Part shown: one piece after another, positions 25,553 to 47,793 of the stretch
Layout of the letters: the number at the start of each line of letters is the position of its first letter
Numbering within the stretch: the stretch's first letter is position 1
Assembly: GCF_012911975.1 (NCBI RefSeq)
Contig: NZ_SMDQ01000002.1
Span: forward strand, 1-64,000
From: Nodosilinea sp. P-1105
Lineage (GTDB): Bacteria > Cyanobacteriota > Cyanobacteriia > Phormidesmidales > Phormidesmidaceae
Direction: 5' to 3'
Length of the DNA stretch: 64,000 nucleotides
The notes under the pieces: generated by a model
What the model saw: only the letters and a program-made list of their open reading frames with translations
What the model was told of the DNA's origin: nothing
Databases searched by the model: none
Made by a program: the position numbers and the translations under genes

Positions 25553-25948
25553 ATGTATCTTCTAGATACCAACATCTGCATTGCTCTCAATCAAGAGCAT
25601 CCTGCCGTGTTGGCTCAGTTTGAACACCAGGGCGCTGAATGCTATATCCCAACCCTGGTACTGGCAGAGCTATACAAGGGAGTTTACTGCTCCAAGCGAA
25701 TAGCCCAAAATCTAGCTAAGCTGGAGGCTTTGTTGAGTGTGCTAGCAGTTGTGCCCTTCGACAACGCAGCAGCTGAAGATTTTGGCAAAATTCAGGGAGA
25801 GTTGAGGCGCATGGGCAAACCTACTGGCGAAATCGATGCCCTGATTGCAGCTGTAGCCCGCTCTCGTAGGGATGTTGTCGTGACTGACAATACCCGACAC
25901 TTTGAAAATATTTCCAATCTCCAGTTAGAAAACTGGCTGCTGAGCTAA
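25553..25948 (+). CDS. VapC-like PIN-domain ribonuclease toxin
   Basis: The 131-residue PIN protein has the acidic active-site set: D5 in YLLDTNICIAL, E in VLAELYKG, D in GEIDALIAA and D in VVTDNTRHF. VapC toxins cut tRNA or rRNA. Intact length, with its antitoxin directly upstream. Confidence 0.92.
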   Translation: MYLLDTNICIALNQEHPAVLAQFEHQGAECYIPTLVLAELYKGVYCSKRIAQNLAKLEALLSVLAVVPFDNAAAEDFGKIQGELRRMGKPTGEIDALIAAVARSRRDVVVTDNTRHFENISNLQLENWLLS

Positions 25949-25980
25949 CCGCAAAGCAACAAGAACGTCGTAAAAACATA

Positions 25981-26637
25981 ATGTTTCATTTGCCTCACTT
26001 CAATAATCCCCTGCTCTTACAACAAGCCCTTACCCATAGCAGCTACGTCAACGAGCACCCCGACGCAGGCCCCGACAATGAACGCCTGGAATTTTTGGGG
26101 GATAGCGTTCTGGAATTTGTGGTGCGCGACTTGCTGTTTACCCGCTTCCCCACCATGGCCGAAGGGGAAATGTCCAAACGGGGCGATCGCCTGGTAGACG
26201 AAACCTGCCTGGCGTCCCTGGCGGTGCAGCTCGATCTCCCTCCTAACTTACGGCTGGGCTCGGGGGCGCAGCACGAACGCCATAACCCCAGTGTCCAGGC
26301 CGATGCATTAGAAGCCGTGATTGGGGCCTATCGGCTCGATGCCGGGTTTAGCGCCGTCTACGACTATGTGGCCGCCATCTTTGGCCCCCTGGTAGAGCAG
26401 GCTATGGATCTACCCGCCATTGACCCCGTCAGTGAGTTCCAGGAATATGTGCAGGCCCACCTGAGTACGACGCCACCCACCTACCACGATCGCGGGGAAA
26501 CTGGCCCCGACCATGCCAAAGTATTTACCGTAGAGGTATGGGTGGCGGGCACCCCCTACGGTACCGGCAGCGGCCGCAGTAAGAAAGAAGCCCGCAAGCA
26601 GGCGGCGATCGATGCCCTCAGGAGGCTGAAGCAATGA
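25981..26637 (+). CDS. rnc: ribonuclease III
   Basis: The 218-residue enzyme has the RNase III signature NERLEFLGDSVLEF (metal ligands E and D), the second catalytic region DALEAVIGAYRLDAG, and a C-terminal double-strand RNA-binding domain (DPVSEFQEYVQAHL to KEARKQAAIDAL). It processes rRNA precursors and duplex RNA. Its stop overlaps the next start (ATGA), so it is cotranscribed with the SDR gene. Confidence 0.95.
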   Translation: MFHLPHFNNPLLLQQALTHSSYVNEHPDAGPDNERLEFLGDSVLEFVVRDLLFTRFPTMAEGEMSKRGDRLVDETCLASLAVQLDLPPNLRLGSGAQHERHNPSVQADALEAVIGAYRLDAGFSAVYDYVAAIFGPLVEQAMDLPAIDPVSEFQEYVQAHLSTTPPTYHDRGETGPDHAKVFTVEVWVAGTPYGTGSGRSKKEARKQAAIDALRRLKQ

Positions 26638-27455
26638 AGGCAGCAATTTTAGGATGTGGCTATGTGGGCGCAACGGTGGCGCAACGGTGGCGATCGCAGG
26701 GGATGAGCATTACCGCCACCACCACTCGTCCAGAGCGGGTGCCAGAGCTAGAATCGGTGGCGGACCGGGTGATGGTGATGCAGGGCTCTAATGCCACGGC
26801 CATGGCGGAGCTGGTACGGGAACAGGACGTGGTACTGATGTGTGTGGGGGCCGGTCGCCAGGCAGACTACCGGGAAACCTACCTGAACACCGCCAAAGCC
26901 CTGGTCCAGGGGCTGGAGCAGGCTCCGGAGGTTAAGCAAGTGATCTTCACCAGTACCTATTCGGTCTACGGCGACCATGGCGGGGCCTGGGTGACTGAGG
27001 CGGATTCGGTCAAACCTGCCACTGACAGACATCAGATCACGGCGGCCACGGAGGAAACGCTATTGGCGGCCGGAGAACGCGATCGCGCCATTTGCATTTT
27101 CCGGCTCGGCGGCATTTACGGCCCTGGTCGAGATCTGGCTAAGATCTATCGCCGCGCCGCTGGCACCACCCGCCCCGGGGATGGGCAGCAGGCCAGCAAC
27201 TGGATTCACCTCCATGACATTGTGGGGGCGATTGATTTTGCCCGGCAGCGGTCCCTGAGAGGGGTCTACAACCTGGTGCAGGATGAAATTCTGCCGGTGA
27301 AAGCGTTGATCGATCGGGTCTGCCAGGCCCATGGGCTGGACCCAGTGCAGTGGGATCCGTCAAAACCCAGTACGCGCCCCTACAATGTGCGCGTGTCCAA
27401 CCAAAAGCTGAAGGCCGCTGGTTATCAATTTAGCCATCCTCAGTTTGAGATTTAA
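26634..27455 (+). CDS. NAD(P)-binding SDR / epimerase family protein (YeeZ-like)
   Basis: The 273-residue extended SDR has an N-terminal Rossmann motif AILGCGYVGATVAQRW, TSTYSVYGDHGG and a glycine-rich IYGPGRDL. The usual YxxxK is not obvious, as in YeeZ-type members. Function is unknown. Coupled to rnc. Confidence 0.85.
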   Translation: MKAAILGCGYVGATVAQRWRSQGMSITATTTRPERVPELESVADRVMVMQGSNATAMAELVREQDVVLMCVGAGRQADYRETYLNTAKALVQGLEQAPEVKQVIFTSTYSVYGDHGGAWVTEADSVKPATDRHQITAATEETLLAAGERDRAICIFRLGGIYGPGRDLAKIYRRAAGTTRPGDGQQASNWIHLHDIVGAIDFARQRSLRGVYNLVQDEILPVKALIDRVCQAHGLDPVQWDPSKPSTRPYNVRVSNQKLKAAGYQFSHPQFEI

Positions 27456-27461
27456 CTTTCA

Positions 27462-27767
27462 CTAAGGGACCGATGCCGTGCCGACGGTAGTGTCGGATCC
27501 AGCGATGCGAATCACCACCGTATTAAACAGACTAATGTCGGTGCCATCAGGGACAGCGAGGTCAAAGGCCCCTTGGGTACTGGGCAACTGACCCAGATCA
27601 ATGTGGCGCTTAGCCATATTGCCGTTGATAGTCAAAAAAGCGTCCAGGGCGTCGACTTCGGCACTGGTGGCAAAACCTTTAAACGACAGGGTAATGGTGC
27701 TACCCACGATCGCCGCCCCCACATAACCGCTGGTGCTGTAGCTATCCACTCCCGCCACACTGCCCAT
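27462..27767 (-). CDS. DM13 domain protein
   Basis: The 101-residue protein is almost all one DM13 domain: TSGYVGAAIVGSTITLSF, GFATSAEVDALDAFLTINGN and LGQLPSTQGAFDLAVPDGTD followed by FNTVVIRI. DM13 domains are proposed redox or extracellular modules. The usual terminal cysteine after VVIW is replaced by VVIRIAGS here. No signal peptide is seen. It ends 6 bp from the convergent SDR gene. Confidence 0.65.
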   Translation of the reverse strand: MGSVAGVDSYSTSGYVGAAIVGSTITLSFKGFATSAEVDALDAFLTINGNMAKRHIDLGQLPSTQGAFDLAVPDGTDISLFNTVVIRIAGSDTTVGTASVP

Positions 27768-28034
27768 AACCCCATCTCCGAGATATCTAAAATCATAAAT
27801 CTGTCAGGGCAAATCAATAACTCGCCCCTTCCCCATTCACGGATGGGTGCCTAGGGTTTTACAATAGTTCATATTATACTAGGTGTTGTTATAGCGGCCA
27901 CTGCCAAAACTCCCGATCATGGCCCATGATAGAGTTTCCTGTTGTATTGGCTACAAAACAACCCAGAACCCCGTCTGAGTGACCCATGATGTTGGTCATC
28001 AGCGGTTCAGCGCACTGAATCCGGAGAAGCAGTT

Positions 28035-30128
28035 ATGGCTAAAGACATCACCCGTTATCGCAATATTGGTATCTTCGCCCACGTCGATGCGGGCAAGACC
28101 ACCACCACCGAGCGTATCCTCAACCTGACCGGCAGAATCCACAAAATGGGTGAGGTGCACGATGGTGCGGCTACCACTGACTTCATGGAGCAAGAGCAAG
28201 AACGGGGGATTACGATTCAGTCGGCAGCCACCTCCTGCTTCTGGAAAGAGCACCAGCTCAACATTATTGACACCCCTGGACACGTTGATTTCACCATTGA
28301 GGTGTATCGCTCCCTGAAAGTGCTGGATGGCGGTGTCGGCGTCTTCTGTGGCTCTGGCGGGGTAGAACCCCAGTCCGAAACCAACTGGCGCTATGCCAAC
28401 GACTCCAAAGTGGCCCGGATTGTTTACGTCAACAAGCTGGACCGGACCGGGGCTGACTTTTACCGCGTGGTCAAGCAGGTGGAAGATGTGCTGGCGGCCA
28501 CCCCGCTGGTGATGGTGCTGCCCATCGGCACCGAAAGTGATTTTGTCGGTGTGGTGGATCTGCTCACCCGTAAAGCCTGGGTTTGGGACGATTCCGGCAA
28601 GCCCGAAAACTACGAAATCCAGGATGTTCCTGAAGACATGAAGGAACAGGTCGAAGAATACCGGGAAGCTATGGTCGAGTTGGCGGTCGAGCAAGACGAG
28701 GCCATCCTGGAAAAGTACCTGGAAGGGGAAGAGGTCACCATTGACGAAATCAAGGGCTGTATCCGGAAGGGTACTCGCGAACTCGCCTTCTTCCCCACCT
28801 ATTGTGGTTCTTCCTTTAAGAACAAAGGGGTACAGCTAGTACTGGATGCGGTGGTGGACTACCTGCCCAGCCCCACCGAAGTTCCACCGCAGCCAGAAAT
28901 TGATTTGGAAGGACATCCCACTGGCAAGTTGGCCTATGTGGATCCTGAAAAGCCTCTACGTGCCCTGGCGTTCAAGATTATGGACGATCGCTTTGGGGCC
29001 TTAACCTTTACCCGCATCTACTCTGGTGAGGTTAAGAAAGGGGACACTATCCTTGACACCGCCACCGGTAAGACCGAACGGGTTAGCCGGATTGTGGAAA
29101 TGCACGCCAACGATCGCGAAGAGGTTGATGCGGCCCAGGCAGGGGACATCGTCGCTCTGATTGGCATGAAGAACGTGCAGACTGGCCACACCCTCTGCGA
29201 TCCCAAGGATCCAGCCACCCTGGAACCGATGGTCTTTCCTGATCCAGTAATTTCCATTGCCGTATCGCCCAAGAAGAAGGGCGACAACGAAAAAATGGGG
29301 ATGGCGATCAGCAAGATGGTGCAAGAAGATCCTTCCTTCCAGGTGGAAACCGACGAGGAAAGCGGTGAGGTCATCCTCAAGGGCATGGGCGAGTTGCACC
29401 TGGACATTAAGGTGGATATTCTGAAGCGCACCCACGGCGTCGAAGTGGAGGTGGGTAAGCCCCAGGTAGCCTACCGCGAGTCTGTCACCCGCCGTCTGGT
29501 AGACAGCTACACCCACAAGAAGCAGTCTGGTGGTTCTGGTCAATACGGCAAGATCGACTACGTGATCGAGCCAGCAGAAACCGGCACTGGCTTCCAGTTT
29601 GAATCGGCCGTAACCGGTGGTAACGTGCCTCGGGAATTTTGGCCCGCTGTCCAAAAGGGCTTTGAAACCAGCATCGACAAGGGTCCCTTGGCGGGCTATC
29701 CAGTGGTAGACCTGAAGGTGACCCTGACCGATGGGGCCTATCACCCGGTGGACTCCTCGGCGATCGCCTTTGAGATTGCCGCCAGGGCCGCCTATCGCCA
29801 GTCGCTACCGAAGGCTGGTCCCCAACTGCTAGAGCCGATTATGAAGGTGGACGTTTTCACCCCTGACGACTACATGGGCGATGTGATCGGCGACCTGAAC
29901 CGCCGCCGGGGCATCATCAAGTCCCAAGAACCCGGTGCCACTGGGGTACGGATCAAGGCTGATGTGCCCCTGAGCGAAATGTTCGGCTACATTGGCGACC
30001 TGCGTACTATGACCTCGGGACGGGGCCAGTTTTCCATGGAGTTCTCCCACTACGCCCCTTGCCCCAGCAACGTGGCCGAAGAGGTAATCAAAGAAGCCAA
30101 GGAACGCCAAGAGGCGGCGTCTAAGTAG
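28035..30128 (+). CDS. fusA: elongation factor G paralogue
   Basis: The 697-residue GTPase has all EF-G parts: G1 [14 protein letters not shown], switch region [21 protein letters not shown]3 DTPGHVDF, G4 NKLDRTG and domains II-V. The gene is solitary rather than between rpsG and tuf, and its N-terminus ([20 protein letters not shown]) differs from the usual str-operon cyanobacterial EF-G. It is probably a second, specialised EF-G (translocation or ribosome recycling). A clear ribosome site GGAGAAG precedes the ATG. Two terminators follow. Confidence 0.9.
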
Positions 30129-36072: not shown

Positions 36073-36137
36073 CACAGTAAACCTGAGGGGTTTTCGTCAG
36101 AGAGCCATGGCCTCAGAGGTTGAGGAGTTTTCGATCT

Positions 36138-37835
36138 ATGCTTCCTGTTTCACGCACCTGGGCGGCGATCGGCCGTCGTCGTTTCATTAAGTTTGCCTCA
36201 GGCATTGGGGTGGGCGTTGCCCTGTCTGTCACCACCCTGTCAGCCTGCCAACCGGGTACCGATGTGGCTGACACCCCTGGGGATGTGCCAGCGGAAGACG
36301 CGGGGGGTGGCACCGTCCGCATTGGCATGACCGCCTCTGATATTCCCCTCACGGGCGGGGCTCCCAATTCCGGCTTTGAGGGGGTGCGCTTTACCGGTAT
36401 GACGATCTACGATGCCCTGGTCACCTGGGATTTGTCGGTGGAAGATGAACCGGCACCGTTGGTGCCCCAGCTGGCCACCGATTGGTCTGTGGACGAAGAC
36501 GACCCTCGCGTGTGGACTTTTAACCTGCGGCAGGGGGTGACCTTCCACGATGGCTCAGACTTTAACGCCGATGCGGTAATCTTCAACTTCGAGAAAATCT
36601 TCGACGAAGACGCTCCCCATTACGATGCTCGCCAATCCGCCCAGGTGGTGGCTCGCCTGCCAGCCTATGAAAGCATTCGCAAAGTTGATGACTATACGGT
36701 CGAAATCACCACTCAGGAACCGACGTCCCTACTGATTAACCAGTTGCCGTTCATGTTCTTCTCTAGCCCCGCCCATTACGAGGCCCTGGGGGAAGACTGG
36801 AGTGCGTTTGAGGAAGATCCTTCCGGCACCGGGCCCTTCATGCTAGACGAGTTGGTTCCCCGGGAGCGGGCCGTGCTGGTGCCCAACCCCAACTATTGGG
36901 ATGAGAATCGCATGGCCCAGGCCGATCGCATCGAATTGATCCCCATCCCGGAAGGAACCACCCGCTCCAATGCTTTGCTGGCTGGAGAGGTGGACTGGAT
37001 CGAGGCGCCTCCTGCTGACACCCTGGCTATGCTTGAGGGTCGAGGCTTTACCATCACTAGTAATGGCTATCCCCATCTCTGGCCGTGGCAGTTTAGTTTC
37101 CTGGATGATTCCCCCTGGACGGATAAGCGCATCCGCCAGGCGGCTAACCTGGCGGTCAACCGCGACGAAATCGAAGCCCTGCTAGGGGGCAATATGGTGC
37201 AGGCAAAGGGGATTTTATTACCGGACGATCCCGCCTTTGGCGACCCCGAGTTTGAGGTCCGCTACGACCCCGATGCAGCCCTGGAGCTGCTTGAAGAAGC
37301 TGGCTATGGCCCCGATAACCCCGTCGAAGTGACCATGCTAATTTCCGCATCGGGGTCAGGGCAGATGCAGCCCCTACCGATGAACGAGCTGATTCAGCAG
37401 CAGTTGGCCGCTGTAGGCATCGACGTTAACTATGAAGTCTTAGTCTGGGAAACCCTGTTTGACAACTGGCGCCAAGGGGCAGACAGTCCCGACTCTCGCG
37501 GTGCCCATGGCACCAATATCACCTTTGCCACCCATGATCCCTTTGCAGCCATGGTGCGCTTCATCTATTCCGAAAGCGCTCCGCCCAATTCTCTCAACTG
37601 GGGCTATTACAGCAACCCTGAGGTGGATGCCTTGATCGAAGAGTTGCAGCTGGCCTTTGACCCCGAGGAAAACCTGGCGGTCTATCAACGGCTGCATGAA
37701 ACCTTGGTGGAAGATGCCCCGTTCTTATTCGTTGCCCATGATGTGGGGCCACGGGCCATGCGTAGCGAGGTTCAGGGCTTCGTCCAAGCCAAGAGCTGGT
37801 TCCAGGACATCACGCCGGTTTGGATGAGTAACTAA
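36138..37835 (+). CDS. peptide/nickel-type ABC transporter substrate-binding protein
   Basis: The 565-residue protein is started at the ATG at 36138, seven bases after GAGGAG. It has a twin-arginine-like signal (GRRRFIKFASG) and a lipobox ending TLSAC. The family 5 solute-binding fold is shown by WTFNLRQGVTFHDGSDFNAD and DEIEALLGGNMVQAKG. It is the first gene of a five-component transporter. The end product of the operon is a hydantoin-type racemase, so modified amino acids or peptides are plausible substrates. Confidence 0.93.
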   Translation: MLPVSRTWAAIGRRRFIKFASGIGVGVALSVTTLSACQPGTDVADTPGDVPAEDAGGGTVRIGMTASDIPLTGGAPNSGFEGVRFTGMTIYDALVTWDLSVEDEPAPLVPQLATDWSVDEDDPRVWTFNLRQGVTFHDGSDFNADAVIFNFEKIFDEDAPHYDARQSAQVVARLPAYESIRKVDDYTVEITTQEPTSLLINQLPFMFFSSPAHYEALGEDWSAFEEDPSGTGPFMLDELVPRERAVLVPNPNYWDENRMAQADRIELIPIPEGTTRSNALLAGEVDWIEAPPADTLAMLEGRGFTITSNGYPHLWPWQFSFLDDSPWTDKRIRQAANLAVNRDEIEALLGGNMVQAKGILLPDDPAFGDPEFEVRYDPDAALELLEEAGYGPDNPVEVTMLISASGSGQMQPLPMNELIQQQLAAVGIDVNYEVLVWETLFDNWRQGADSPDSRGAHGTNITFATHDPFAAMVRFIYSESAPPNSLNWGYYSNPEVDALIEELQLAFDPEENLAVYQRLHETLVEDAPFLFVAHDVGPRAMRSEVQGFVQAKSWFQDITPVWMSN

Positions 37836-38035
37836 TGGTCTGTCAAGCCGGAAGTGACGGGTCCGCAGGGCCTACGGTTCACGGCCCACGGTGTATGGTC
37901 TACGGCTCGGCTTAAACCGCTTACCGTGAACCGTGAACCCTAAGTCACACCTCCCAGCATGACTTCTTTGGCTCAACACCAGTTAGCCTTGCCTGTGATC
38001 CGAGCTATCGAACGACCTTCGGCGGAAATACCCCT

Positions 38036-38971
38036 ATGTTTTTGTACATTTGTCGTCGTATTGTCTACACCATTCCCATCGCCCTGGCGGTGGCGGTGGT
38101 CTGCTTTTCCCTGGTTCACTTGGCCCCAGGGGATCCTTTATCGGCGGTTATTCCTGCAGATGCCCCAGCGGAGGTGGTGGAGCGCATCATTCAGGCCTAC
38201 GGTATGGATCGCCCCTTGCCAGTGCAGTTTTTTGCTTGGCTGGGGCGAGCCGTTCAGGGAGACCTGGGCTTTTCTGTGGCTACCGGTCGCCCGGTCACCC
38301 AAGAGATTGGCCGGGCCTTGGGCTACACCTTTGTGCTGTCCTTAGCGGCGGCGGCCATTGGCTTTTTGTTTGGCATCCTGTTTGGGACATTGGCGGCCTT
38401 TTTCCAGGGCCGTTGGAGTGACAAGCTGGTCACGGGGATTGCCCTGTTTGGTGTTTCGGTGCCCCATTACTGGCTTGGTCTTTTGCTGGTGATTATTTTT
38501 TCGGTGCAGTTGGATTGGTTGCCATCCCTGGGGGGTGGGTCCGGCTCATGGATCAACCGGGCTCGCTATTTGGTCCTGCCAGCGATCACCATGAGCTTTA
38601 TTCCCATGGGGATTGTCACCCGCACCGTGCGATCGACGGTGGCTGACCTGCTGGGGTCAGAATTTGTCACCTCGTTACGGGCTCGGGGGCTCGGCAGCAG
38701 CAGAATTGCCAATCATGTGGCTAAGAATGCGGCCCCGACGGTACTGGCGGTGATGGGGTTGCAGTTTGGCTACCTCTTAGGTGGGTCAATTCTAGTGGAA
38801 ACTGTTTTTTCTTGGCCGGGTACAGGCTATTTACTCAATACCGCCATTTTTCAGCGGGATATTCCCCTATTGCAGGGAATCATTTTGACTTTGTCAATGT
38901 TCTTTGTGGCCCTGAATTTGTTGGTCGATTTGTTGCAAACCCTGTTTGACCCGCGCGTTCGTCGCAATTGA
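38036..38971 (+). CDS. ABC transporter permease, DppB/OppB type
   Basis: The 311-residue protein starts MFLYICRRIVYTIPIALAVA, with six membrane segments and the loop YLVLPAITMSFIPMGIVTRT, the EAA-type contact site. It pairs with the next gene to form the channel. The 200-bp gap before it holds a short inverted repeat (CGGTTCACGG / CCGTGAACCG) and no gene. Confidence 0.95.
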   Translation: MFLYICRRIVYTIPIALAVAVVCFSLVHLAPGDPLSAVIPADAPAEVVERIIQAYGMDRPLPVQFFAWLGRAVQGDLGFSVATGRPVTQEIGRALGYTFVLSLAAAAIGFLFGILFGTLAAFFQGRWSDKLVTGIALFGVSVPHYWLGLLLVIIFSVQLDWLPSLGGGSGSWINRARYLVLPAITMSFIPMGIVTRTVRSTVADLLGSEFVTSLRARGLGSSRIANHVAKNAAPTVLAVMGLQFGYLLGGSILVETVFSWPGTGYLLNTAIFQRDIPLLQGIILTLSMFFVALNLLVDLLQTLFDPRVRRN

Positions 38972-39060
38972 GGCTAAGTCAGGGCTTAGTTAGCCTTTGC
39001 TAAGCCGTTGTTATCTGCTTTGTTGTCCCGATCGATAGACGTTTCTAAGAGTCCGAGCCT

Positions 39061-39966
39061 ATGCAAACTACGCCTAAGTCAGCGAATGCCCTTAAGGCTG
39101 CCGATGGGGGCAAAATTGCCACCAAGTCACGGGGCTACTGGGCGACGGTCTGGCTCAGCCTCAGCCGCGATCCAATTTCGATTGTGTGTGCCAGTATCCT
39201 GGTGCTCTTGGTGCTGATTGCGATCTTGGCTCCGGCGATCGCCCCCTATAGCCCGTCCCAGGGGGCCATGGTAGATCGACTGTTGCCCATTGGTAGCCCC
39301 GGTCATCCGCTGGGTACTGATGAGCTGGGCCGCGATATGCTGACTCGGTTAATGTATGGCGGCCGCATGAGCCTTTTGATGGGGATTTTGCCGGTGTTTG
39401 TGGCGTTTGCGATCGGCACCAGCCTGGGCTTAATGGCTGGGTTCTTTGGGGGCTGGGTCAATACTCTGGTGATGCGGACGACAGATGTGTTTTTTGCCTT
39501 TCCAGCCGTGTTGTTGGCGATCGCGATTTCAGGAGCCTTGGGGCCAGGCTTGGGTAACTCGATGTTTGCCCTAACCCTGGTGTTTATCCCCCCCATTGCC
39601 CGGGTAGCAGAGAGTGTGACCACCCGGGTACGGTTGCTTGACTTCGTAGATGCGGCCCGGGCGTCGGGGGCTAACTCTTTGACGATTGTGCGGGTGCATG
39701 TGTTTAACAACGTCATGGGGGTGGTATTTATTTACGCCACCAGCCTGGTGTCAGTCTGCATGATTTTGGCCGCAGGGCTGAGCTTTTTGGGCCTGGGGGT
39801 GAAGCCGCCCACCGCTGAATGGGGGCTGATGCTGAACACCCTGCGCCAATCCATTTATGTGCAGCCCTGGGTGTCGGTTTTGCCCGGCTTCATGATTTTT
39901 ACCACCTCGCTGTGTTTTAACTTGCTGTCTGATGGGTTGCGCGGGGCGATGGATTTGAAGCGTTAG
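39061..39966 (+). CDS. ABC transporter permease, DppC/OppC type
   Basis: The 301-residue protein has the N-terminal OppC-type segment and APYSPSQGAMVDRLLPIGSP leading to HPLGTDELGRDMLTRL, a hallmark of DppC. The EAA region is FVDAARASGANSLTIVRVHV. It forms a heterodimer with the preceding permease. Confidence 0.95.
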   Translation: MQTTPKSANALKAADGGKIATKSRGYWATVWLSLSRDPISIVCASILVLLVLIAILAPAIAPYSPSQGAMVDRLLPIGSPGHPLGTDELGRDMLTRLMYGGRMSLLMGILPVFVAFAIGTSLGLMAGFFGGWVNTLVMRTTDVFFAFPAVLLAIAISGALGPGLGNSMFALTLVFIPPIARVAESVTTRVRLLDFVDAARASGANSLTIVRVHVFNNVMGVVFIYATSLVSVCMILAAGLSFLGLGVKPPTAEWGLMLNTLRQSIYVQPWVSVLPGFMIFTTSLCFNLLSDGLRGAMDLKR

Positions 39967-40080
39967 ATAGTTGAGATGGGCGTGATGGTTTAGGCCAACG
40001 CTGCCCTGGGCGTCAGGTTTTGATCGATGGTTATGCCGCTAGCGTCTGCTCAAGTTGCTGCTCTATGAGGATTGAAGGTT

Positions 40081-41109
40081 GTGACCGCTTTTCTCCAGGT
40101 TGAAGGCTTACAGAAATACTTCCCTATTGGCAAAAATTTCCTCGGTCGTCCCACCCAGGTGGTGAAGGCGGTTGAAGACGTCTCTTTTGCCACCGAACGA
40201 GGTAAAACCTTAGGCATCGTTGGGGAATCTGGCTGTGGTAAGTCCACTACAGCTCGCCTGTTGATGGATTTGAGTCCCCCCGATCAGGGGCGCATCACCA
40301 TTGACGGGCAAGCCTATGGCAAGGGAGCCGGGCGCAAACCCATTACGGCCCTCCGCAAGCGCATGCAGATGGTGTTTCAAGACTCCTATGCTTCCCTTAA
40401 TGCCCGTCTTACCATCGAAGAAAGTATTGCCTTTGGGCCAAAGATCAATGGGGCTAGCGATCGCGAAGCCAGCACCAAAGCCCGGGATCTGCTGGATCGG
40501 GTGGGGCTAGATCCTGACAACTTCATTCGTCGCTACCCCCATGAGCTGTCGGGGGGGCAGCGGCAGCGGGTCAATATTGCCCGAGCCCTGGCGATTGATC
40601 CAGAAATTGTGATCCTCGATGAGGCCGTTTCAGCCCTCGACAAGTCGGTGCAAGCCCAGGTACTGAATCTCTTGGCCGATTTGAAAGCCGAGTTTGATCT
40701 GACCTATTTATTTATTTCCCACGACCTGAATGTGGTGCAATACGTCAGCGATGATGTGATTGTGATGTATTTGGGGCAAGTGGTAGAGTCCGGGCCAGCC
40801 CAGGCGATGTACTCCACCCCAGCCCATCCCTACACGGCCGCCCTTTTGTCAGCGCTCCCGGCCCTGCACCCTAAGGACCGCAAAACCCGCGCCCCCTTGG
40901 AAGGGGACCCCCCCAATCCCATTTCGCCGCCGTCGGGCTGCCGCTTCCACCCCCGTTGCCCGTTTGCCGAACCCATGTGTGCCGAGACGGTGCCCCTCTT
41001 AGCTGACATTGGCGGCGGTCGACATGTGGCTTGCCATATGCGGGTACCTGGCTCCGGCTATCCAGATGTGCGTCCCATTGTCACAGTTGCGCCCTCCCCG
41101 ACTGCTTAG
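40081..41109 (+). CDS. ABC transporter ATP-binding protein, OppF/DppF type
   Basis: I choose GTG 40081 (VTAFLQVEGLQ); a TTG at 40072 is the other option. The protein has Walker A GESGCGKSTTARLL, signature LSGGQRQRVNIARAL and Walker B VILDEAVSALDKSVQ, with A in place of the common P. The C-terminal C-rich oligopeptide-transporter motif GCRFHPRCPFAEPMC is present. F comes before D in this operon, opposite to the usual order. Confidence 0.93.
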   Translation: MTAFLQVEGLQKYFPIGKNFLGRPTQVVKAVEDVSFATERGKTLGIVGESGCGKSTTARLLMDLSPPDQGRITIDGQAYGKGAGRKPITALRKRMQMVFQDSYASLNARLTIEESIAFGPKINGASDREASTKARDLLDRVGLDPDNFIRRYPHELSGGQRQRVNIARALAIDPEIVILDEAVSALDKSVQAQVLNLLADLKAEFDLTYLFISHDLNVVQYVSDDVIVMYLGQVVESGPAQAMYSTPAHPYTAALLSALPALHPKDRKTRAPLEGDPPNPISPPSGCRFHPRCPFAEPMCAETVPLLADIGGGRHVACHMRVPGSGYPDVRPIVTVAPSPTA

Positions 41110-41151
41110 CTGTTTCTTTCCCTGCCGTCATGCCACCCATGAGGTCTTGCC

Positions 41152-42147
41152 ATGGATAACATTGTTGAAGTTCGCGATCTCTGTGTCACGTTCAAAACGT
41201 CAGAGGGATCGGTGTACGCCGTCTCGAATGTCAACTTGGATCTGGCTGAGGGCAAAACCTTGGCGCTGCTGGGGGAATCGGGCAGCGGCAAGAGTGTGAC
41301 CATGAAGTCGCTGATGCGGCTACACCCGCCCCACAAAACCCAGATCACCGGCAGTATTCAAGTGGCTGGCCGAGATGTGCTGGCCCTGGGTAACCGTGAA
41401 CTGTCAGACATGCGCGGTAAGGATATCGCCATGGTGTTTCAAGAACCGATGCTGGCCTTTGACCCGGTGTTTAAGGTGGGAGACCAAATCGCCGAGGTGG
41501 TCATGCGCCATGAGGGATGTAGCTATGAAGCAGGCCGCGATCGCGCCCTAGAAATGATGGAATGCGTTCACATTCCCTCCCCCCGTAAGCGGCTGGATGC
41601 CTACCCCCACGAAATGAGCGGCGGCATGCGTCAGCGGGCCATGATTGCCCTGGCCCTGGCCTGTCGACCCACAGTATTGCTCGCCGACGAGCCCACCACA
41701 GCGTTGGATGCCACGGTGCAAATCCAGGTGCTGCTGTTGCTGCGAGAGCTCCAGCGGGAATTTGGCATGAGCATGATTTTTGTCACCCATGATGTGGGGG
41801 TGGCGATCGAGGTGGCCGACGAAATCGCGGTCATGTATGGGGGGCGGATTGTGGAGCAGGGGCCGGTTGATGAGGTCATGACCGATCCCTGGCATCCTTA
41901 CACCCAGGGGCTGTTGGGGGCCACTGTCTACCCCAACATGGACCCCGCCACTCGCTTGGTGTCGATTCCAGGGGCGCCGCCGCAGTTGTACCGGCAGATT
42001 ACTGAATGTGCCTTTGCCCCCCGCTGCCCCCATGCCACTGACGAATGCCATGACCCCCTGCCCCCTCCGACCCAGACGGACCAGCGCATGGCCCGCTGCA
42101 TTCGCCTCCCGGAAGTGGCTGGTGCCCTGCCCCGTGCCTCCGTCTGA
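41152..42147 (+). CDS. ABC transporter ATP-binding protein, OppD/DppD type
   Basis: The 331-residue protein has Walker A GESGSGKSVTMKSL, signature MSGGMRQRAMIALAL, Walker B LLADEPTTALDATVQ and the C-terminal motif CAFAPRCPHATDEC. It ends six bases before the racemase ATG, so the operon continues. Confidence 0.94.
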   Translation: MDNIVEVRDLCVTFKTSEGSVYAVSNVNLDLAEGKTLALLGESGSGKSVTMKSLMRLHPPHKTQITGSIQVAGRDVLALGNRELSDMRGKDIAMVFQEPMLAFDPVFKVGDQIAEVVMRHEGCSYEAGRDRALEMMECVHIPSPRKRLDAYPHEMSGGMRQRAMIALALACRPTVLLADEPTTALDATVQIQVLLLLRELQREFGMSMIFVTHDVGVAIEVADEIAVMYGGRIVEQGPVDEVMTDPWHPYTQGLLGATVYPNMDPATRLVSIPGAPPQLYRQITECAFAPRCPHATDECHDPLPPPTQTDQRMARCIRLPEVAGALPRASV

Positions 42148-42152
42148 ACCCA

Positions 42153-42890
42153 ATGAAGATTCAGGTCATTAACCCCAACATCACCGCCGCCATGACCGCC
42201 ACGATTGGGGCCGCCGCCCGTCAGGTGGCCGCCCCCGGCACCACCATTGTGGCGACAAATCCTACCATGGGGCCAGTGTCCATCGAAGGACACTACGACG
42301 AAGCCCTGAGCGTGATTGGGGTACTGGACGAAATCCGCCAGGGGGAAGCCGTCGGCGTCGATGGCTATGTGATTGCCTGTTTTGGCGATCCGGGGTTACG
42401 GGCCGCCCGAGAGTTAGCGCGGGGGCCTGTGGTGGGCATTGCCGAGGCCGCCATGCACGCCGCCAGTCTGATTGCCTCCCGATTTTCAATCGTGACCACC
42501 CTGAGCCGGACCAAGGTGATTGCCCAGCACCTGGTCCACAGTTACGGCATGGAGCGGTGCTGCGCCAGCATTCGCGCCACTGACCTGGCCGTGCTGGACC
42601 TGGAGGATGCCAGCGGTGCTGCCCGGGCCAGCATTTTGCAGGAATGCCGCCTGGCCTTGAAGCAAGACGAAGCAGAAGCGATTGTGCTGGGCTGTGGCGG
42701 CATGGCGGACCTGGCAATCGAGTTGACCCATGACCTGGGGGTGCCAGTGATTGATGGTGTTACCGCTGGGGTTAAGTTTGTTGAGGCCCTGGTGGCGTTA
42801 GGGTTAGGCACCAGTAAGGTGCGGGATTTTGCCTACCCAGTTCCCAAACCCTGCGGGGGACTGTTGGCGGAGTTTAGTAGGGGCCTATGA
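42153..42890 (+). CDS. hydantoin / Asp-Glu racemase family protein
   Basis: The 245-residue protein belongs to the HyuE/allantoin racemase group: IQVINPNITAAMTATIGAAA and the two catalytic cysteine regions YVIACFGDPG and IVLGCGGMADLA. It interconverts D and L forms of hydantoins or related acids. It sits 5 bp after the last transporter gene, which suggests the cell imports a racemic or D-configured nitrogen compound and racemises it. Confidence 0.92.
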   Translation: MKIQVINPNITAAMTATIGAAARQVAAPGTTIVATNPTMGPVSIEGHYDEALSVIGVLDEIRQGEAVGVDGYVIACFGDPGLRAARELARGPVVGIAEAAMHAASLIASRFSIVTTLSRTKVIAQHLVHSYGMERCCASIRATDLAVLDLEDASGAARASILQECRLALKQDEAEAIVLGCGGMADLAIELTHDLGVPVIDGVTAGVKFVEALVALGLGTSKVRDFAYPVPKPCGGLLAEFSRGL

Positions 42891-43165: not shown

Positions 43166-46132
43166 TCATCCTTCTGCCTTCATCCTTTTCTCCAACACCT
43201 CTACCGTACCGGCGGCCCCGTCGATGCGCACCCACTGGCCGGTGTGTAATCGCTGGGTGGCGTTGGTCACATCCATCACAGCGGGGATGCCGTACTCGCG
43301 GGCCACGATCGCCCCGTGGGATAAGCGGCCGCCGACTTCTGCGACCAGGCCCTTTGCTCGCGCCAGTAGGGGAGCCCAGCCAGCATCGGTATAGGGCACG
43401 ACCAAAATAAAGGGAGCCTGATCGGCATCGACGGTCTCTAGTTGCGTCATCACTCGTACTGGCCCTTCTACAATCCCAGCGCTGGCGCCAATGCCAAACA
43501 ATTGCTGTTGTACCGAGGCTGCCGCCACGAGCAACAGTTCGGTACTGGGTGGGGCATTGCCAAACACCAGGTTAGGCACCACCTCCATGGCGTTATCCTG
43601 CTTGAACTGCTGGCGGCGCACGGCGATGCTGTGGCTGATATCTTCCCAGGGGAACGGATGATCGGCCAGAATTTGGGTTTTGACCTCGGCCAGGGTGAGG
43701 AAAAAGATCTCATCAGGCTGTTGCAAGTAGCCCTGCTGCTGCCACTGATGGGCGATCGCCAGGAAGCTCCAGCGCAATTCGGCCAGCAGCCGGTTATAGA
43801 GGGTGTTGACTCGCCCCTTTAAATCGAGCCGATGTTGGGCTAAAGCGGTTTTGAAACTCAATGGGCCGGGTTCGTTAACGGATTTAGGTTGGGGTTGCTG
43901 ACGCACCAGCTGGGCCAGCAACTCTCTGACAGGGCCAGGGTTTTCGTGCCAAGTGGGCACTGCAATGTCTGTCCCCACCGGGCTGAGGTAGCCATAGTCT
44001 TCAATGAAGTGAGCCACCTGGGCCAGAATTGTGCCGCCATCGGTGCTTTCTGCCAGGGCCGTCATCAGGGATGACCCATTGGAAATGCGGGCTAACTCGG
44101 CGGCAGAAAAAATCTGGCGGGTCTCCTGGGCAATCACCCGTAGCTCCTCTAGGGCGGCAATTTCCACATTTTCCTTGGGGTCGAGGCTCTCATCAGGTAC
44201 CTTCAGCAGGGCCTGGCGGAGGGCAAAGCTGAGGGGAGCCATAATGTTGTAGTACGTGACGCGCCGCAAGAGCCCTAGCACATCCTCGATGCGATCGAGC
44301 AATTCGTCCATCGACAGGCGATCGCGAGGAATCGCCGCAAAAGTAGCCAGGCCTGCACGGAACAAGGTGGCTTCATCCTGCACAAACTGCTTATCCAGCC
44401 ATAGCTCTCGGTGCAGTAGGCGCAACAGGCCCGGTACATTCTGCAGGGTGGAAGCCAGGGGGGGACGGCTAAATTTAGCGCCCCGGGTCAAAAATTCCAG
44501 GCTCTCAGGGGGTAGGCCCATACACTGGAAAATATCCCCTAGTAGGGTGGCATTGAAATAGGCATAGGAGCGATGCAGGGTGGCCGTTTCTTCAAAGTTG
44601 AGTCCCTGGGCGCGATCGCCTAGCACCACGGTAAAAATTTCCCCCCAAACCCCACAGGTCAAAGGCCGATTAATCGACCAGGTGAGGGGGCGAATCGTGC
44701 CAGGAATCACCTCGGCGGCAATCTTGCGGGTCCAGATCGGTTGCAGGGTGGTGATGGGGCGGCTTTGCAACAGCCACAGGGTTTCACCGTCGTAGGTCCA
44801 CTCAATGTCTTGGGGAATGCCGTGGTAGCGGGCCTCTAGGTGCCGGGCCAGGTAGGCCACCTGTTGCAGCAGGCGGCTTGGGGTTTTGCCTTCCCCGTCT
44901 ACCGTCAGGGTCAGTGCCTCTGGCAACTGCCAGCTAGACTCGGGCTCTACCTCGGTGGCGGTAGGAATATCGTCGGGCTGCACCAGCACCCGGTACTGTT
45001 CTGGGGTGACCTGTCCCGAAACCACCCGTTCCGCCCCCCCTGGCAGGGCTTCGATGATCACCGCATCGCCGCAGCGGGCCACCGGATCGCGGCTAAAGGC
45101 CACCCCCGAAAATTGCCCGATCACCTGTTGCTGCACAATCACGGCCATGGAGCGTTCTGGCAGGCCATTGTCTTGGCGATAGCGCACTGCCGCCGGATTG
45201 TTGTAGGAGGCAAAGCAGCGGACAATCGCCTCGGATAGGGCCTCAGTACTGGTGACGTTGAGAAATGACTGGTACAGACCTGCCGCTGACGCCGTGCTGG
45301 TGTCTTCATCGGGGGCCGAGGAGCGCACGGCGACAGGTTGGCTGGGGGAGGGGTCAGCAATACCCAGCAGGGCACTAGGATCATCCCCAGCGGGCAGCAC
45401 ATAACCCCGGGGCACCGGATAGCCCCAGGCGACTAATTGTCCTAAAGTGGCGGCTTTACTGCCGTACTTGGTTTGATCGAGCGGCCGATCAAGGGCCACT
45501 AAACCGCGATCGCCCCTAAAAAACCGAAACATTGTGCGTGACTCCAATCGTCCCCCTTGGGTAGGCAGGTCTAAATCATCGGGCAGTTTCTGATAAATCC
45601 AGGCGATTAGCCCACTTAGGCAGGTAACCGCCAAAATTCTGGGGCCATCAGCGGTATGGCGCAAGGCCGTCAGCACAGGTAACAACACCAGAACCAAAAG
45701 TCGTCCTTGTTGCCGCTCTCGAAAAATCGTAAAGCCTAACCCACTCACCAGCAGCGTCAACACTGCTGTAACCCAGTCGTGCACCACGAAACCCCAGACC
45801 ACATTGGTGGTGCCAGCCCCCTTGGCAAACCAGTAGCGCCCCATCACTAGGCCGATCAAGGCCACCACTTCCCACACAGGGTCGTAGGGAAAATAGTGAC
45901 GGGCCAACAGCACCACCGCAATGCCCTTCACGGCTTCCAGTAGCACTGCTAAAATGCCCGCCAGCTTACCCCCATGGTAAAAGGCCGCAGACACCCCGAC
46001 ATTACCCGTGCCAAGCTTGGCCAGGTTCTGCCCGGATACTAACCGCGTGGCCCAACCCGTAAGCGGTAGCCCCCCAATTATCGGAGACAGCACAAAAATT
46101 AAAAACGCACCCCAAACCTGGGTGAGAGTCAT
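43166..46132 (-). CDS. PlsY-like acyltransferase fused to a PEP-synthase-like protein
   Basis: The 988-residue protein has an N-terminal integral-membrane part like PlsY, the glycerol-3-phosphate acyltransferase (about 1-195; GGLPLTGWATRLVSGQNLAK then LGTGNVG and LEAVKGIAVVLLARHYF). After it comes a PEP synthase/PPDK-type ATP-binding region (about 225-480; YGSKAATLGQLVAWGYPVPR, VAVRSSAPDEDT). The C-terminal phosphohistidine domain has GGRLSHGAIVAREYGIP with the swivelling histidine near 938. A PEP-binding TIM barrel is not evident, so the C-terminal half may transfer phosphate to another acceptor. The reading frame is unbroken. Confidence 0.85.
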   Translation of the reverse strand: MTLTQVWGAFLIFVLSPIIGGLPLTGWATRLVSGQNLAKLGTGNVGVSAAFYHGGKLAGILAVLLEAVKGIAVVLLARHYFPYDPVWEVVALIGLVMGRYWFAKGAGTTNVVWGFVVHDWVTAVLTLLVSGLGFTIFRERQQGRLLVLVLLPVLTALRHTADGPRILAVTCLSGLIAWIYQKLPDDLDLPTQGGRLESRTMFRFFRGDRGLVALDRPLDQTKYGSKAATLGQLVAWGYPVPRGYVLPAGDDPSALLGIADPSPSQPVAVRSSAPDEDTSTASAAGLYQSFLNVTSTEALSEAIVRCFASYNNPAAVRYRQDNGLPERSMAVIVQQQVIGQFSGVAFSRDPVARCGDAVIIEALPGGAERVVSGQVTPEQYRVLVQPDDIPTATEVEPESSWQLPEALTLTVDGEGKTPSRLLQQVAYLARHLEARYHGIPQDIEWTYDGETLWLLQSRPITTLQPIWTRKIAAEVIPGTIRPLTWSINRPLTCGVWGEIFTVVLGDRAQGLNFEETATLHRSYAYFNATLLGDIFQCMGLPPESLEFLTRGAKFSRPPLASTLQNVPGLLRLLHRELWLDKQFVQDEATLFRAGLATFAAIPRDRLSMDELLDRIEDVLGLLRRVTYYNIMAPLSFALRQALLKVPDESLDPKENVEIAALEELRVIAQETRQIFSAAELARISNGSSLMTALAESTDGGTILAQVAHFIEDYGYLSPVGTDIAVPTWHENPGPVRELLAQLVRQQPQPKSVNEPGPLSFKTALAQHRLDLKGRVNTLYNRLLAELRWSFLAIAHQWQQQGYLQQPDEIFFLTLAEVKTQILADHPFPWEDISHSIAVRRQQFKQDNAMEVVPNLVFGNAPPSTELLLVAAASVQQQLFGIGASAGIVEGPVRVMTQLETVDADQAPFILVVPYTDAGWAPLLARAKGLVAEVGGRLSHGAIVAREYGIPAVMDVTNATQRLHTGQWVRIDGAAGTVEVLEKRMKAEG

Positions 46133-46191: not shown

Positions 46192-46851
46192 CTATTCTTC
46201 AAAGGGTCTTACACCATATTGAAGCAGCTGTTGCCGACGAGTGGGGGGCGGCAGGGGCGGATTGTCATAGTACAGGTATGGATGGGGCGGCATGCGCACA
46301 GGATACATCGGCGGCGGACGATGGGTTTGTCGCTGTAGATGCATCAGCCACAGGGCAATAATGGCGAAAGCAGTACCACCCCCCAGCATCAGCATCATAA
46401 ACAAGCCCAGAATGCCCCACAAAATCATGGTTTGGGTTTCATTATTGCGCGGAATCGACTCGATCAGGCGCACCTGCTGGGAGGTCATCTCCTCGACCGC
46501 CTGTTGATAGGTGTGTAGTTGCTCGACCACCATCTCGGTTTCAGCCCGCTGACGCTCTAGCTGCAGTTTCAAGTCATCCGCCAACTCTTTTTGAGCTTGC
46601 AGTTCCTGTTGCAGACTTTCAGTTAAATCTTGCTGTTTAGTCAGATCCCGCTCCAGTCGATCTTGAAACGAGTCAGCCGCCTGGCTGGGAGGGTGGGGCA
46701 CCGGAATCGTCTGGACATCTAAGCTTTGGGGACTCGGAGGAGCCTGGGGGGAAACGAGCGATCGCGGGCTACCGGCACGACTGAGCAGCAGCGCCAGAGA
46801 AAGCGCTCCCATTCCGAACAAACAAGCTACTATAACAGGCCTTGCCTTCAT
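46192..46851 (-). CDS. membrane protein with coiled coil, unknown function
   Basis: The 219-residue protein has an N-terminal signal anchor (VIVACLFGMGALSLALLLS), a heptad-rich coiled coil (about 65-125; LQQELQAQKELADDLKLQLE), a second membrane span (IMLWGILG-like, MILWGILGLFMMLMLGG) and a proline/tyrosine-rich tail. I do not recognise it. Confidence 0.72.
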   Translation of the reverse strand: MKARPVIVACLFGMGALSLALLLSRAGSPRSLVSPQAPPSPQSLDVQTIPVPHPPSQAADSFQDRLERDLTKQQDLTESLQQELQAQKELADDLKLQLERQRAETEMVVEQLHTYQQAVEEMTSQQVRLIESIPRNNETQTMILWGILGLFMMLMLGGGTAFAIIALWLMHLQRQTHRPPPMYPVRMPPHPYLYYDNPPLPPPTRRQQLLQYGVRPFEE

Positions 46852-47216: not shown

Positions 47217-47606
47217 CTAATCAAAAGAGCACTGGACGGTAATTTTCAGGTTGCTCTCTGCGGTACCTTTGGTGACATAAGGAACTCCTGCCTCTCCGCC
47301 GACCTTAAGGCCGAACTCTAGGGTGACTTTTTCGACATTGGCGGTGGCCATGTCTTTGAAGGCATTCATGGTGTAGTTGGTATAGGTGCGGATAGTCCCC
47401 TCAATTGCTTTAAAGCTTTGAGCCGCATGGGCCTGGGCGGTTTGGTTGGTCATCCCCCAGTTGATGCCTTTGGCGGTGCGAGTGGTTTCAGTACCAGGGC
47501 TGGGACTGTCAGGATAGCTCGCCGAATCTGGGGCAACCACATCTTCGGTTGCTTCCAGGTAGATCTCGGTGCCATCCTCCAGACGGATGGGAACTAGTTG
47601 GGTCAT
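47217..47606 (-). CDS. CU044_2847 / Trypco1-type protein
   Basis: I start it at 47606 (MTQLVPIRLEDGTEIYLEAT), since the longer frame begins in non-conserved DNA. The 129-residue protein ends with VTLEFGLKVGGEAGVPYVTK followed by the beta strand NLKITVQCSF, the hallmark of the trypsin-co-occurring domain family. In other bacteria these domains accompany trypsin-like proteases and VMAP-type ATPases in proposed conflict systems. None is adjacent here. Confidence 0.75.
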   Translation of the reverse strand: MTQLVPIRLEDGTEIYLEATEDVVAPDSASYPDSPSPGTETTRTAKGINWGMTNQTAQAHAAQSFKAIEGTIRTYTNYTMNAFKDMATANVEKVTLEFGLKVGGEAGVPYVTKGTAESNLKITVQCSFD

Positions 47607-47793
47607 AGTGCACACTCTGATGGTTAAATGCAGGTTGTCGAGAATCTTCAGGCCCACCTAGCATTCCCCAAAAATCCCCCATCCCCCCATCCCCCCATCT
47701 GTAACGATAGGTTTTCCCTACCTCCCCCACCCCCCACAACTAGCAAGATTTTGTCTATAAGAAAAAAGGGAGTACTAACAGGGGTAGGCGACC

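Follow-up and report, generated by a model that had tools for sequence, protein, structure and literature searches.

PlsY catalyses an essential step and employs an unusual donor. RPH-type dikinases are a large group of enzymes, whose substrates are mostly unknown. Prodigiosin ligase PigC and undecylprodigiosin ligase RedH, which also contain PEP-synthase-like ATP-grasp and swivel domains, present a precedent for such activation serving ligation.

In PlsY of Aquifex (PDB IDs: 5xj5-5xj9), the phosphate clamp and 2-OH ligand set for glycerol-3-phosphate (G3P) consists of Ser35, Arg45, Asn180 and His177, the last being the 2-OH ligand, and Lys104 belongs both to the clamp and to the phosphate hole (PMC5700162). 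Acyl-phosphate is bound by the hydroxyl of Thr41, where serine keeps about half the rate, and is contacted by His92; the S35T mutant retains 17% of activity, while even substitution of Arg45 by lysine costs more than 90% of it (PMC5700162). The rifampin phosphotransferase RPH-Lm (PDB IDs: 5fbs, 5fbt and 5hv1) is composed of an ATP-grasp domain, a helical substrate-binding domain and a C-terminal phosphohistidine swivel domain, and its Arg666-Glu667 pair holds the phosphate (PMC4844700). HpeHI, CreHI and phenylphosphate synthase PpsAB follow the same dikinase logic, but their acceptor domains have diverged (PMC12167813). The RPH-type enzymes described in these studies phosphorylate hydroxyls (PMC4844700, PMC12167813).

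Our present results describe a cyanobacterial gene in which a PlsY-fold membrane domain is joined to a complete RPH-type dikinase. Its component parts are known; their combination, together with an altered PlsY site, is new among RPH-type dikinases, and no description of the fusion was found in the open-licence literature.

Gene and domain architecture

The window, i.e. the whole analysed stretch of 64,000 nucleotides from Nodosilinea sp. P-1105, carries the following features, all on the minus strand:

43166..46132, minus (read 46132 to 43166): whole gene, 988 codons plus stop, ATG start, with near-full-length orthologs
45515..46117, minus: PlsY-fold membrane domain, residues 6-206 (G3P_acyltransf PF02660 at residues 16-179, 62.3 bits, cut-off 24.1; structure match to 5xj5)
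45968..46012, minus: altered motif 1 GTGNxxVSAAFYHxG, residues 41-55, counterpart of PlsY GSGNxGATNVxR (alignment of 107 sequences)
45791..45841, minus: altered motif 2 GRYWxxKGAGTTNVVWG, residues 98-114, with R99 in the place of PlsY His92 and a loop about 7 residues shorter
45563..45583, minus: PDDLDLP, residues 184-190, replacing PlsY motif 3 RHxxNIxR (alignments; D185 and D186 invariant)
44750..45511, minus: ATP-grasp domain, residues 208-461, with K226, R270, E444 and Q456 (PPDK_N at residues 264-464, 160 bits; structure match to 5hv6_A; invariance)
43517..44749, minus: middle substrate-binding domain of RPH fold, residues 462-872 (model and structure match to RPH)
43190..43510, minus: phosphohistidine swivel domain, residues 875-981 (PEP-utilizers mobile domain PF00391 at residues 907-975, 83 bits; structure matches)
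43316..43318, minus: His939, counterpart of RPH His825, the phosphate carrier (alignments; invariant in 107 sequences)

The frame lies exactly where the initial annotation, made from the letters alone, had placed a single frame of 988 residues with ATP-grasp PPDK-type and phosphohistidine swivelling domains, and both domains were recognized by Pfam; residues 465-906 have no Pfam match. The fusion is not a chance frame, since near-full-length orthologs with identical domain order were recovered from dozens of other cyanobacteria and dN/dS in seven ortholog pairs is 0.02-0.27 in all four domains. Both halves are thus under strong purifying selection.

A full-length AlphaFold2 model, calculated with 45 orthologs, has mean pLDDT 83 and pTM 0.63. 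Its residues 208-461 match the ATP-grasp domain of RPH (5hv6_A: Z 21.4, rmsd 2.6) and also that of HpeI (9goj: Z 17.9), while residues 208-981 match whole RPH with Z 24.8 and rmsd 16.7, the latter being large because the domains are positioned differently. The swivel domain (residues 875-981) matches those of pyruvate kinase and enzyme I (Z 17-18). The middle region 462-872, modelled alone (pLDDT 89.6, pTM 0.89), adopts the RPH rifampin-binding fold: it matches RPH residues 325-750 with Z 21.4 and rmsd 3.9 over 342 aligned residues, the best unrelated chain reaching Z 9.3. The likeness to rifampin-phosphotransferase-type enzymes, suspected from the beginning, is thereby extended to a complete domain set in identical order. 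K226, R270, E444, Q456 and H939 are invariant in 107/107 sequences, and K226, R270 and H939 correspond to RPH Lys22, Arg117 and His825. Unlike RPH-Lm, the fusion carries an additional N-terminal membrane domain and a shortened ATP-grasp domain, and its middle domain is only 16-17% identical; NCBIfam matches of this region to PRK06241/RPH are weak (32.8 bits at best). HpeHI, CreHI and PpsAB differ from the fusion in being two proteins acting on phenolic substrates, with no membrane domain. PigC and RedH (NF052631, NF052632), which lack the PlsY domain, have models on which the fusion scores about 220 bits, far under the cut-offs of 1300 and 1350 bits.

PEP-synthase models head the NCBIfam list for the fusion, which would suit a regular PEP synthase or pyruvate phosphate dikinase carrying an extra N-terminal domain, but this ranking comes from the ATP-grasp and swivel domains held in common. 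The score on PEP synthase model TIGR01418 is 183.6 bits against a cut-off of 739.8, the swivel domain comes last, the fold of the middle domain is that of RPH, and no PEP-barrel family is found by Pfam at E<=1, in agreement with the initial annotation, which had seen no clear barrel. A PEP-synthase barrel was also absent among the VIA-align rows listed for the middle domain, which alone excludes nothing. On domain content, this explanation is refuted and keeps a negligible probability. As both the PlsY and the PEP-synthase names fit poorly, automatic annotation has likely been misled.

As residues 208-981 resemble RPH best, both in structure and in sequence, the protein might also be a detoxifying kinase directed against rifamycin-like or other antibiotics, that is RPH provided with a membrane anchor. 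We consider this very improbable. On RPH equivalog NF041857 the fusion scores 245.8 bits against a cut-off of 999, and the Arg666-Glu667 pair, present in 9/9 solo RPH-like proteins compared, is absent: its place is taken by K772-G773 in an ungapped alignment and by a gap in hhalign. Conservation in the class is broad and apparently vertical, unlike that of a resistance gene. Defence-system models gave no match. Nowhere in the protein is conservation higher than in residues 467-550, at the beginning of the middle domain (mean 0.84-0.90), and this points to a substrate that is specific and shared.

The altered PlsY site

The N-terminal part had been called a membrane G3P acyltransferase domain at first; the fold was upheld and the enzyme name was not. 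Residues 6-206 of the model match Aquifex PlsY 5xj5 with Z 17.8 and rmsd 2.9 (181 aligned, 17% identity), and the two share the membrane fold, the GxGN motif and a glycine-rich phosphate-loop-like motif. The score on PlsY equivalog TIGR00023 is, however, 29 bits, below its cut-off of 137.2. In the alignment of 107 sequences, T42, N44, F51, Y52, H53, E66, K69, R99, G107, T109, N110, D185 and D186 are invariant, and S48, A106 and P184 are each found in 106. Among the invariant positions, Thr42 replaces Ser35 of PlsY, Tyr52 replaces Arg45 and Arg99 replaces His92. Thr41 is represented by Ser48, with the hydroxyl retained, and motif 3, including His177 and Asn180, has become PDDLDLP. The set Ser35/Arg45/Asn180/His177 is not retained in the fusion. 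With Arg45, His177 and Asn180 replaced, the grip on G3P is dismantled, while the acyl-phosphate site may be kept in part.

Lys104 may be retained, as Lys or Arg in 96 of 107 sequences, but its counterpart depends on the method: K104 of the fusion (Lys in 72, Arg in 24 and Gln in 9 of 107 sequences) meets it in hhalign and lies one position off in MAFFT, and the alignment may slip by one because the preceding loop is about 7 residues shorter. Loss of Lys104, considered as a further difference, was abandoned as the profile alignment (hhalign) pairs it with K104.

A genuine G3P acyltransferase that receives one of its substrates from the attached kinase (for example acyl-phosphate made from free fatty acid) and yields lysophosphatidate in one protein would account for the PlsY fold, the serine in the place of Thr41 and the KGAGT loop, which resembles the PlsY phosphate loop KGVAT. 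It is nevertheless improbable: the TIGR00023 cut-off is missed, canonical PlsY coexists with the fusion in nearly all genomes, and Aquifex PlsY can hardly do without either Arg45, here tyrosine, or motif 3, here gone (PMC5700162). Loss of PlsY catalytic residues, named initially as a ground for rejecting the proposed function, was thus observed in part, and the Nodosilinea genome encodes a separate canonical PlsY, scoring 167.4 bits on TIGR00023, above the same cut-off. It also encodes PlsX; these two proteins serve ordinary phospholipid synthesis.

The dikinase follows the C-terminus of the PlsY domain, an arrangement compatible with a putative cytoplasmic dikinase. The PlsY half could be a non-catalytic anchor, presenting a lipid alcohol or acid dissolved in the membrane, with phosphorylation by the dikinase as the sole chemistry. 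This is a serious possibility: the G3P-site residues Arg45, His177 and Asn180 are gone, the dikinase half is complete, and related small-molecule dikinases are active although they have no membrane domain (PMC4844700, PMC12167813). Within the PlsY half, however, the invariant residues gather at active-site loop positions and not only on the membrane face, which is more than a mere anchor would need. As the substrate grip is mostly lost yet the half is strictly conserved, the protein may well be a membrane enzyme of two steps that has not been characterised before.

Two divergent orthologs of more than 1000 residues (L169 and L172, from genomes G039 and G320 of family f11) have isoleucine or valine in the place of Tyr52 and, in one of them, alanine in the place of Ser48; His53 and the dikinase residues are retained in both.

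Distribution and joint decay

Following up the suggestion that distribution of the fusion be examined, we found matches at E<1e-50 in 106 of 386 sampled genomes of the phylum, all of them in the class of Nodosilinea, where about half of the sampled genomes have the gene (by manual count, the 106 comprise the genome of the window, two others of its family and 103 more). The fusion was not found in other sampled classes, whose 18 matches reach only 1e-22 to 1e-30 and are due to shared PEP-synthase-like domains, nor in the small genomes of family f20. PF02660 is present in 376/386 genomes, generally as two genes where the fusion occurs and as one where it does not. In a scan of genome contigs from 84,980 species, the best 80 matches were cyanobacterial records and one contig labelled Candidatus Gracilibacteria (JAAUUT010000001.1), which carries a typical cyanobacterial ortholog and probably represents a mis-binned or mislabelled genome. 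Outside cyanobacteria, no relatives were found in plasmids, searched with the PlsY half, or in viral contigs.

Two genomes of genus g59 (G193, loci L125 and L130; G346, loci L124 and L129) contain two canonical-looking PlsY genes each and no fusion. At L131 (G215:C95, about 25717-28709) the gene changes frame right at PDDLDLP, with 186 aa of PlsY half in one frame and an open frame of 836 aa for the dikinase half in another; this is either a sequencing error or a real split. Genome G170 (L136/L168, C2, about 1159300-1161100) has a second paralog of 591 residues with PlsY-like, ATP-grasp and swivel parts, without the middle domain and with degenerate ATP-grasp and PlsY motifs. Substitution of the fusion for PlsY was considered for G051 and G064, where canonical PlsY is absent, and dropped. 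The neighbouring gene is missing in both as well, and in G051 an 8,000-base masked stretch starts where matching sequence stops, so that the absence of PlsY there is uninformative.

Pairwise distances of the PlsY and dikinase halves correlate (r = 0.82). Three orthologs from family f14 (L167 in G058, L174 in G083 and L166 in G211), of 916-932 residues, have PlsY motif 1 deleted, PDDLDLP gone and motif 2 disrupted; at the same time they have lost K226 together with most adjoining ATP-site residues, and their catalytic histidine is changed to glutamine. Despite the lost active-site residues, dN/dS between the G058 and G083 orthologs is 0.05-0.11. By their sequences, these proteins appear to be conserved double pseudoenzymes. 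For the anchor this lineage cuts both ways: the protein is kept there without either active site, but motif 1 and the dikinase residues were lost together. That both active sites are dead in a protein still conserved suggests a single function behind the two activities and hints at cooperation of the halves, although with joint decay confined to one lineage a single event may explain it. It also suggests that the protein may do something besides catalysis.

A possible two-step reaction and its genomic setting

The explanation we favour, tentatively and with somewhat less than even confidence, is a membrane-anchored small-molecule dikinase of RPH architecture in which a repurposed PlsY domain forms a second active site; a PlsY half that purely anchors or presents is nearly as likely. 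In the two-site enzyme, the ATP-grasp domain would bind ATP and His939 of the swivel domain would accept its beta-phosphate, with release of AMP and Pi, and deliver the phosphate to a substrate held in the middle domain. Phosphorylation would plausibly yield an acyl-phosphate or a different amphipathic molecule in phospho-activated form, which the PlsY-like domain might use, passing the group to an acceptor. The acceptor would not be G3P, as features of the acyl-phosphate site seem to be kept and the G3P clamp is not. Catalysis by the PlsY half, transfer of the product from one site to the other and the nature of the two substrates are our inference.

Arguments for the two-site enzyme are the complete RPH domain set with its five invariant residues, the PlsY active-site loop positions that are invariant though altered, purifying selection on all four domains, the coupled decay in f14, and the separate presence of PlsX and canonical PlsY. 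Against it stand the variation of Tyr52, and once of Ser48, in family f11, the equivalence of Lys104, uncertain by one position, the restriction of coupled decay to one lineage and a neighbourhood that is not conserved. To our knowledge, no RPH-type enzyme makes an acyl-phosphate, which also counts against it.

A more specific version, an ATP-driven membrane acyl ligase whose dikinase half makes acyl-phosphate (ATP to AMP) and whose re-tooled PlsY acylates a non-phosphorylated acceptor, is doubtful. If true, acyl-phosphate could be made in a further way, next to PlsX and FakAB; PlsY would gain a new reaction, and cyanobacteria a lipid pathway of their own. The initial proposal that the fusion joins lipid synthesis to phosphoryl transfer may hold. 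A conserved fusion beside normal PlsY points to an undescribed cyanobacterial lipid or isoprenoid reaction. The invariant residues make its function directly testable.

Gene neighbours are not conserved beyond near relatives, so the neighbourhood gives no pathway clue. The most frequent neighbour is a short-chain dehydrogenase, about 1.6 kb off on the opposite strand. In the window, a gene about 60 bases upstream of the fusion (46192-46851, minus strand) encodes a protein of 219 residues that has hydrophobic stretches and resembles a coiled coil in its middle; it has no Pfam family above cut-off, and related genes precede the fusion only in 11 near relatives. A gene with trypsin-co-occurring domain 1 (PF19493) is located at 47217-47657, minus strand. 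On the plus strand, positions 36120-42890 hold a cluster that, judged by eye, resembles a peptide-type ABC transporter, with a binding protein, two permeases and two ATPases, followed by a gene of the Asp/Glu/hydantoin racemase family.
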